DNA of 64,000 nt from Clusia tigrina (lineage: Eukaryota > Arthropoda > Insecta > Diptera > Clusiidae). The DNA lies in contig OV050030.1 of NCBI GenBank assembly GCA_920105625.2, positions 97,977,152 through 98,041,151 on the forward strand, in the 5' to 3' direction. The stretch's first letter is position 1. The number at the start of each line of letters is the position of its first letter. Positions 9,810-12,194 of this stretch are shown here, one piece after another. A model generated the notes under the pieces. That model had not been told where the DNA came from. It saw only the letters and a program-made list of their open reading frames with translations, and ran no database searches. A program made the position numbers and the translations under genes.

Positions 9810-9814
9810 CGGCG

Positions 9815-9842
9815 CACTGTGGTGCCTCAGCGGAAAAAATAA
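9815..9842 (+). repeat. Transib left terminal repeat, 12-spacer signal-like
   Basis: Heptamer CACTGTG (9815-9821), a 12-bp spacer (9822-9833) and an A-rich nonamer AAAAAATAA (9834-9842). The layout matches a 12-RSS of V(D)J recombination, although A-runs are common in this AT-rich DNA. Confidence 0.8.
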
Positions 9843-10433
9843 AATTTTTCGAACATCTAATACTTATATATAGATGGATCAGGTGAATTAATAAATATTT
9901 GAATAAGCTGAATTCATAATTTTTTTTTTTTAAATTAATTTTTTTTGTCTACAAAATCGGAGACGGATGTCAGAATAAATTTTTTGAGCTGTAATTGTTA
10001 AAAAAAACTTGCTGAATTGAGCGATGAATTTGTCTGATACAATAATTCGAATTTATATTTTAGGGGCTTAGTATTAAAATGTAATACTTTCTTGACAGTT
10101 GAAAGAAAAAATTAATGAAATCGATCAAGTATTTCAGAAAATATAACCATTAGAAAGTTATGCTTTGAAAATGCCGGCCATCATACATTTGATGGACAAA
10201 CACTGTGTGTGCTACGTCTTGCTACTATAAAAACGTATATAGAAATTAAAGGTCGAAATGTGTTGTTTGGATTTCTGGAAAAAAATTTTGCAATATTTTG
10301 CTCTTAACGTAGTTAAAGCGATTTGAATGTCGAAAAGGCGATCTAAAAATCGTGCACAATGCATAAAAAACACGGCATACTTTTAGGATTATGCTAGTTA
10401 ATTGCCTCATAAATGTAAGTAATGTAAACAAAA
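9843..10433 (+). other. Transib 5' internal region, N-terminal transposase not recognisable
   Basis: AT-rich, many stops in all frames. The N-terminal half of the transposase should lie here but I cannot recognise it, so it is decayed or deleted. Confidence 0.5.
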
Positions 10434-11598
10434 TGTAAAAACAAAAACAACAATATTATTATATGCGATGGGTCATCTGGACATGCTGAATACCAGCAAA
10501 GTCTTCTTAGCGATGCAAGTGATGGAAATATTTATTTAGTTTCAATGGTACCGCTAACATTAAATTCAGAATGCAATAATGAATTTTGGCGAAACAATAG
10601 TCCATCGTCAACCCGATACTGCCGTCCGATTTCGTTCGAATTTGCCAAAGAAACGAAAGATAAAGTTGAAGAAGTAGCCGGAAAAATAAATTCCCAGATC
10701 GCTGCTTCGAAGCCCACACAGATATCTATCTATAATAGGGAAATAAATGTGAAGCATAACCTTCTGTTCACAATGATCGACGGTAAAACGGCTCAAATAG
10801 TCACACATACTCCTTCTGCAGCAGTATGTTACATTTGTGGTGCAAAACCAACAGAAATGAATAATTTGGAGCTGATTTTATCAAAAACAGTACAGGCAGA
10901 GGCATTTAAATTAGGGATATCATCTTTACATGCTAGGATAAAGTTTATGGAGTGCATACTTCATTTAGGATATAATTTGCCGTTTCAAAAGTGGGCTGCG
11001 ACTCTTGAAAATAAGCAAATTAAACAACAAAATAAAATTCGAATTCAGGAGCGTTTCAGAGAGAGATTGGGCTTACGAGTGGATGCTGTACAGCAAGGGA
11101 CTGGCACATCTAACAACGGGAACATGTCAAGGCGTTTTTTTTTCAAACCCTGAAATTGTGGCCGATATAACGGGAATAAAACACGAACTGATAGACCGAT
11201 TTAGAATTATCCTCCAAATACTAACATGTGGACAAAAAATTAATAGCGACAAATATAACACTTATGCAATGAATACAGCAAAGTTTTTTGTCGAGAATTA
11301 CAGCTGGTTTCATATGCCTGTAACTGTGCACAAGGTTCTTATACATGGCAAGCAAATTATGGATGCCGCAATACTTCCAATTGGAATGCTATCGGAGGAA
11401 GCCGAAGAAGCCCGGAATAAGGATTACAGAAAATTCAGGCTTATGTTTTCTAGAAAATGTGATCGAGTTTCAACAAATTCTGATGTTTTCCATCGACTGC
11501 TGGCAACTTCTGATCCGTATATCACTTCCATATGGCGACAACCAAATAAAAACACATTAGAATTAGATCCCATTGTCCAACAAATGATAGAGGACTAA
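10434..11598 (+). pseudogene. Transib transposase, RAG1-core-like C-terminal part, one frameshift
   Basis: The frame is open from about 10434 to 11153. It carries CDGSSGHAEYQ (10464 on), which matches the place of the first catalytic Asp in RAG1 (CDGMGD); SSTRYCRPISFEF; a CYICGA zinc-binding pair like RAG1 CTLC; SLHARIKFMECIL; and IRIQERFRERLGL with NNGNMSRRFF, like RAG1 KHLRKKMNLKP...NGNFARKL. The frame then shifts at a run of nine T (about 11134-11142) and continues (open 11005-11598) with KVLIHGKQIMDAAILPIGM. Last comes SEEAEEARNKDYRKFR, where the Glu three residues before NK (codon 11407-11409) matches the catalytic Glu of RAG1. I cannot assign the second catalytic Asp. A single indel in a homopolymer could be a sequencing error. 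Confidence 0.9.
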
Positions 11599-12150
11599 AA
11601 AAGCCTTTTGCTTTAACCATTTTTTGTTTTTTAAATAATTATACTGATGTTTGCGATAAACTTCCAACAAAAGTATATGGTTCGCATGAACTTGTTACAA
11701 GTTCGAATACCTGCACATAATTATCAATATAACAAAAAGTTTACCTAATTGTTCGCATTTTTTAAGCAAATGGTGTTCCTTAAAAATGTTTAAAAACTCA
11801 CAGAAAGTGGGCGTGATTGATTGATTGATTTAATAATAAATACCCTTTGTTTTTACCAATCTAAATTAGGTTTGATTGAGAATACCGAATTCAAAAATTT
11901 TAGATGTAAGGAAAATGGGCGTGGCAGTGATCCAATTTTTATCTAGATATATTTTTTTGGTTTCAAATAGGGGGCTCTACTATCCTACCAAATAGCATTA
12001 AGATCGAATGAGAATTGCGAGTTTTTGAAATTTCAGTTGTATGGCAGGTGGGCGTGGCAATGGTTTGATTTTGACAAAATTTTATAATTTTCTTAATGTG
12101 ATCAAAATTATCGTTTGTGCTAAAATTCATTGCTCTACGATTACTCCTTC
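11599..12150 (+). other. Transib 3' noncoding region with two diverged direct repeats
   Basis: No ORF of its own. Two related blocks (about 11874-11940 and 12007-12072, period about 133) each carry GAGAAT...GGGCGTGGCA; a third GTGGGCGTG lies at 11808. The ORF that starts at 12041 uses this DNA for its first about 50 codons, which are not RT. Confidence 0.6.
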
Positions 12151-12189
12151 TATTTTTTTCCAAAAAATGTATGGGGCGGCACCACTGTG
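12151..12189 (-). repeat. Transib right terminal repeat, 23-spacer signal-like
   Basis: On the minus strand: heptamer CACAGTG (12189-12183), identical to the consensus RSS heptamer, a 23-bp spacer (12182-12160) and an A-rich nonamer AAAAAAATA (12159-12151). Both ends share GG just before the A-run, which suggests the A-rich motif is homologous and its distance differs by 11 bp. Confidence 0.8.
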
Positions 12190-12194
12190 CGGCG

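Follow-up and report, generated by a model that had tools for sequence, protein, structure and literature searches.

V(D)J recombination demands one signal with a 12-bp spacer and one with a 23-bp spacer, and the origin of this demand is an old question. The initial annotation of the stretch of Clusia tigrina DNA analyzed here (64,000 nucleotides, hereafter the window) described a Transib element with a left end of CACTGTG, 12 bp and AAAAAATAA and a right end of CACAGTG, 23 bp and AAAAAAATA, and proposed that the family may carry asymmetric ends relevant to the origin of the 12/23 rule. Are these ends truly asymmetric, and do they bear on that origin? The answer that we consider fairly probable is that this is a defective cut-and-paste Transib whose transposase would join one 12-type and one 23-type end, in a layout probably reached apart from V(D)J recombination.

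The window element and its close copies

The sequence bears out both ends as described (Table 1), including the GG ahead of the A-runs at the left and right ends and a right heptamer identical to the RSS consensus, CACAGTG. When the element and one CGGCG are removed, the flanks form a single retroelement pol frame, LVVPKEGTNDGGTKKLRIVIDHK; the right flank has an RVT_1 match, and the host site is a retroelement pol frame. The uninterrupted frame of this empty site fixes the element ends independently. The 12/23 layout of the ends is confirmed.

Table 1. Features of the family A element, in window positions
Feature	Position	Strand	Remarks
Transib element, family A	9815..12189	+	~870 bp short of full copies (~3.25 kb)
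Left target-site duplication CGGCG	9810..9814		sequence read; flanks joined
Left heptamer CACTGTG	9815..9821	+	
Left 12-bp spacer GTGCCTCAGCGG	9822..9833	+	GG at its end; length 12 in 13/13 close left ends
Left box, 22 nt	9832..9853	+	nonamer-like AAAAAATAA at 9834-9842, then AATTTTTCGA
Junction where ~870 bp of full-length copies is absent	10464	+	element pieces 1-654 and 650-2375 are separated by ~870 bp in L010 and further copies
Transposase remnant	10464..11598	+	aligned to the 473-residue query from its residue 160 onward; frame break near 11140
Right nonamer-like box AAAAAAATA	12151..12159	-	
Right 23-bp spacer GTGCCGCCCCATACATTTTTTGG	12160..12182	-	length 23 in 11/12 intact right ends
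Right heptamer CACAGTG	12183..12189	-	
Right target-site duplication CGGCG	12190..12194		

The initial annotation also ascribed a RAG1-core-like transposase to the element. The homology holds: the transposase matches HzTransib (PDB 6pqn) with 351 bits and is homologous to the Transib/RAG1 core, its D-containing motifs WGCDG and MIDGK align with 6pqn, and a profile built from its relatives also found RAG1 chains. The window copy itself is a defective Transib without a working transposase frame, which is broken near 11140 and lacks, relative to longer copies, ~870 bp including the N-terminal part. The transposase pieces matched no Pfam family at its cut-off; PF26100 is carried by some public relatives. 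An IMG/VR scan with a single protein, able to detect close relatives only, gave no match. With a RAG1-like core, a 5-bp GC-rich duplication and CAC-heptamer ends, the element shows the features of the Transib superfamily, and its closeness to HzTransib suggests a place in Subgroup II of PMC9435367.

The host genome (G000, 1.21 Gb) holds ~12 close family A copies. In their alignment, the left spacer is 12 in all 13 left ends (window copy counted), with a changed heptamer in L012 and L016. The right spacer is 23 in 11 of the 12 intact right ends and 24 in L017; the right box of L018 has one substitution, and the right ends of L009 and L014 are lost. The same 5-mer stands on both flanks in 10 of 12 copies, the other two being those with lost right ends. 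A search of the host genome with the right-end pattern (up to 3 mismatches) gave 11 matches, every one already known. Equal spacers at both ends, for which the initial annotation had proposed to look in other copies, occur in none of the close family A copies with an intact right end.

Two copies, L015 (C2:120.62 Mb) and L017 (120.56 Mb), lie 58 kb apart in opposite orientation with common flanking 8-mers and a CGCCA duplication. They are probably a duplicated locus and not two insertions, and for this reason are not independent copies. Target duplications are frequently CGNCG, by an uncounted impression, near the CGCCG target of RAG strand transfer given in the available part of PMC11844651.

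Asymmetric and symmetric families in one genome

A protein search of the host genome gave at least 95 Transib matches (90 of 2544 candidates scored), many in open frames several hundred residues long, with a maximum of 714. The genome is crowded with Transib families, and 14 copies of one of them, K, have a stop-free 714-residue frame, suggesting recent activity.

Family ends were located by matching 5-bp duplications and heptamers. Besides A, four families are 12/23: B (e.g., L025, L028, L029 and L041), with a protein 62% identical to that of A, B2 (L023; 75% over 206 residues), D (L053/L054 and L059/L060; 44%) and T (L109/L110, and L112/L113 with 4 of 5 duplication letters; 43%). The left heptamer is CACTGTG in A, CACAGTG in B, CCCACTG in B2 and CACACTG in D and T, and the spacer letters also differ among the five; the left length is 12 in all of them.

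Six families (F2, J, M, K, H and L2) are symmetric, mostly ~23/23. F2 and its copy Q are 23/23, as is J, with 4 of 5 duplication letters matching (5 of 5 in its copy M2). M is 23/23 through an ATTAATT box, or 12/12, and thus symmetric under both readings. The two ends of K are nearly identical across 33 bp. H has ~23 at each end, with a weak left box and a matrix optimum of 22 on the right end. L2 shows no relative shift between its ends and no A-run, and the right end of F4, of the J kind, is without a box. These tallies omit N, G, Lf, S, P and H2, for which one end was found, and F1 and C, for which none was. Within the divergent set L023-L048, the stretches of L024, L027, L032, L033, L037, L040, L043, L046 and L047 yielded no left end, and those of L038, L039, L044, L045 and L046 no right end.

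Family E (L049/L050) is 14/23 or 22/23, because its long A-rich stretch allows the box to be placed either at 14, as ACAAAAATA, or at 22, as AAAAAAATC. On its left end the matrix is best at 14 and next best at 22, with 245 of 2000 shuffles equally good, and E was dropped as a clear second asymmetric family because of this ambiguity. At its left end E has GTGGCGCCCATAC, resembling the right ends in A, B and D, whereas GTATGGG, the reverse, stands at the right end of E.

How the two end types pair was followed with patterns that tolerate mismatches and no indels, so that the spacing is fixed in advance and other spacings are missed. The patterns found 84 B-type right ends, 23 B left ends and 68 B2 left ends, with 0 control matches; the two left-end lists have one place in common. 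Out of 174 distinct B/B2 ends, 126 pair facing inward within 8 kb, forming 63 left-right, 0 left-left and 0 right-right pairs, and 21 right and 27 left ends stay unpaired. For D, 13 left and 14 right ends give 12 pairs, all left-right, with 3 single ends. All 75 pattern-found pairs (B/B2 and D) have one 12 and one 23, within the spacing that the patterns fix. Founder inheritance explains at least part of this one-of-each pairing, without any rule, and the pairing is therefore weak evidence for a rule. With 32 of the 63 B/B2 pairs at 962-1220 bp and 46 below 2 kb, most appear to be non-autonomous, too short for a whole transposase gene. The 84 right ends against 23 B left ends had first hinted at 23/23 elements among the B copies; these were ruled out by the second left-end type, B2, with its spacer of 12. 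In L105, L106 and L107, a ~143-bp tandem duplication, ~82-85% identical, lies just inside the B-type right end, and L107/L108 is a ~1.2-kb non-autonomous copy holding a ~2.6-kb insert.

The left A-run could be mere local AT-richness, as the initial annotation itself had asked, leaving a heptamer without a second site at an accidental spacing of 12 bp. Judged from the single family A copy, the A-run is indeed weak evidence: in dinucleotide shuffles of families taken singly, 90 of 2000 for A, 116 for B, 38 for B2 and 1 for D score as well as the left box somewhere. Its place in other families raises it above chance. A matrix built from the right ends of other families is best on the left ends at spacer 12 (A, B and D) or at 11 and then 12 (B2), and the spacing of 12 is kept in A, B, B2, D and T despite differing spacer letters. 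Along the left end of J, the summed matches to the 22-nt left boxes of A, B, B2 and D are highest at spacer 23 (63 of 88 letters), a value that 0 of 5000 dinucleotide shuffles attained. Against H the peak is also at 23 (54 of 88 letters; 12 of 5000 shuffles as high), and the T left box matches J in 19 of 22 letters at spacer 23, the next best being 10. Against F2, K, M and L2 the boxes showed no homology (600, 4041, 2724 and 1791 of 5000 shuffles as high, respectively). AT-richness alone was rejected on the shuffles and the box shift to J, and we regard it as highly improbable. By this letter comparison, A, B, B2, D and T have after 12 bp the left box that J and H have after 23 bp, a difference of 11 bp, which is about one turn of the DNA helix. 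The view that the A-rich motifs are conserved sites whose spacers differ by 11 bp holds over copies and families.

Another possibility is a two-part left site, in which the protein reads the second half, AATTTTTCGA, whose A-run is inverted and lies at about +28 to +37, so that both ends would be ~23 and differ in A-run direction. That half is conserved in A, B and partly D, near a +23 spacing. However, for the four left ends of the 12 type the right-end matrix gives only -12.6 to -18.8 when placed at spacer 23 (one strand scored), and in J the entire box, including the second half, is shifted 11 bp inward, which makes this reading unlikely.

Transposase tree and the linker between GRP and core

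Fifteen host-genome proteins gave the 12/23 grouping a support of only 57/12; it became firm after 24 to 26 further proteins were joined. The larger tree has 41 transposases, comprising the 15, T, HzTransib and 24 public proteins hand-picked among 120 listed of 752 found. In this tree, a branch supported by 100/98 and recovered in 200 of 200 bootstrap trees groups A, B, D and T (B2 is unplaced), and the same branch has 97/93 and 98% of bootstrap trees without the N-terminal columns. H (23/23), P0043 and P0069 are its sister; HzTransib, J, K, M, F2, L2 and E lie outside. Joining E to the 12/23 group is disfavored (AU p 0.0116, for a group named after tree inspection). These trees unite in one clade all the 12/23 families that they include (A, B, D and T). 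The T transposase (L111) is very near P0035, P0036 and, from Heliothis virescens, P0034, and horizontal transfer is possible.

According to PMC9435367, RAG1 and Transib have a conserved GRP motif in their nonamer-binding domain. The Transib GRP aligns with that of RAG1 and is invariant in 20 Transib proteins, a sample chosen among proteins with GRP; family A has GRK instead. We measured the linker as the residues counted from GRP to a conserved anchor near QY in the core. In the host genome, the short linkers are A 61, D 61, T 57, E 60 and B ~58, and the longer ones are J at least 89, L2 ~91, F2 at least 78, M at least 76 and K at least 75. For H, a GRP 368 bp upstream of the coding stretch implies ~92 residues; as 368 is not divisible by 3, the H sequence involves an indel or error at some point. 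RAG1 has 86 residues, as read off the alignment. At the linker, each of 9 copies of E falls 32 residues short of P0059.

A survey on a quick tree of 94 rows extended these counts. GRP or the anchor was missed by the rule in 46 public proteins among the 120 listed (out of 752), which stay unmeasured; P0078, P0090, P0114 and H were labeled long by other means, and the short labels of A, B, D, T and E were set by hand. The linker is 53-63 residues in 36 of 36 labeled rows of the 12/23 clade, long in 17 of 17 labeled rows of the sister clade and long in 40 of 47 labeled rows outside the 12/23 clade. Its state changes three times on the tree, and two rows are discordant: P0047, with a linker of 66 within a long group, and P0068, with 92 beside the short E group. 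In these alignments, the linker of the 12/23 clade is ~30 residues shorter than in the sister clade and RAG1, and the short state is probably derived, because the sister clade, most outside rows and RAG1 are long. The association between linker and spacer comprises one clear change in the tree, the second short lineage, E, having an ambiguous left end. Linker length is no general cause of 12/23, because RAG1 pairs 12 and 23 with a long linker.

Each end in A, B, B2, D and T consists of heptamer, spacer and A-rich box, with the 12-bp spacer on the left, upstream of the transposase gene, and the 23-bp spacer on the right. We propose that the A-boxes would be bound by the GRP-bearing N-terminal domain, and that the cut would be positioned by heptamer contacts. 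In the ancestor of the 12/23 clade, the left spacer may have been shortened by one helical turn, and the ~30 residues between the N-terminal domain and the core may have been lost together with this turn. Such an arrangement would work like V(D)J 12/23 pairing, probably with a separate origin. More generally, end spacer and A-box domain tether may evolve together, with ~30 residues lost alongside the 11-bp shortening of the 5' end in the 12/23 clade and perhaps again in E; this broader idea is tentative, and we rate it somewhat below even. If it is true, 12/23 pairing in Transib evolved out of 23/23 on one or more occasions, independently of RAG and through a protein change that has no counterpart in RAG.

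The trees are midpoint-rooted, so that the direction from 23 to 12 is inferred with the root unfixed, which leaves room for the opposite change, from 12 to 23. The unfixed root is also compatible with ancestral 12/23 Transib ends, directly related to the V(D)J 12/23 signals, from which the 23/23 families would be secondary. The GRP region common to Transib and RAG1 fits this account, as does the report that Subgroup I Transibs, nearer RAG1L, are all asymmetric (PMC9435367). Yet the 12/23 families form one short-linker clade, whereas RAG1 and 40 of the 47 outside rows are long, and a left spacer of 23 occurs in H and J, in separate parts of the tree. We consider common ancestry quite improbable, and the comparison suggests convergence of the Transib and RAG 12/23 layouts instead. 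The bearing on the 12/23 rule that the initial annotation proposed is thus kept in part: the asymmetry is real, but the H and J boxes at 23 and the short linkers against the 86 residues of RAG1 point more to parallel evolution.

Comparison with known systems

The 12/23 and 23/23 Transibs stand side by side in one genome, some of them with long open reading frames. The T and J left boxes, with 19 of 22 letters at two spacings, make the change from 23/23 to 12/23 swappable and measurable. What the comparison of copies and relatives contributes is 12/23 across a clade, apparently derived from 23/23 by one helical turn, together with a shortened protein tether. In open-licence papers, supplements and figures being outside the scope, we found neither the 11-bp shift of a common box nor the linker correlation in print.

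Asymmetric ends as such are no new kind; 12/23 Transib ends are already known, and the element is ordinary for its kind. The interpretation in the initial annotation is, as a whole, partly supported. The available part of PMC8355894 attributes 12/23 (+/-1) ends to Transib5 of D. melanogaster and to Transib2, N1, N2 and N3 of A. gambiae, taken from Kapitonov and Jurka 2005, and proposes Transib 12/23 ends as the source of the V(D)J signals. By this published description alone, these elements are like the window family, with heptamer and nonamer-like 12/23 ends. In PMC9435367, Subgroup I Transibs are all asymmetric and Subgroup II includes asymmetric and symmetric ones, and PMC8289069, in its available part, describes most Transib families as symmetric. 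HzTransib of H. zea (PDB 6pqn and five further entries) belongs to the same superfamily and has a homologous core; unlike family A, it has symmetric ends (PMC8289069, same part) and lies outside the 12/23 clade.

ProtoRAG and other RAGL transposons share with family A the 5-bp duplications, the CAC ends and two-part asymmetric ends. They differ in that ProtoRAG has a spacing of 27/31 and GCCATCTTG as second element, according to the same portion of PMC8289069.

The V(D)J signals with RAG1/RAG2 resemble family A in CACAGTG, the 12 and 23 spacers, an A-rich second box and the aligned GRP region. In contrast to the V(D)J nonamer, ACAAAAACC, the family A boxes, AAAAAATAA and AAAAAAATA, are not nonamers of that kind; Transib is without RAG2, as stated in the available part of PMC11844651; and the RAG1 linker has 86 residues against 57-61 in the 12/23 Transibs here. 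The Transib and RAG versions of 12/23 may be parallel solutions.
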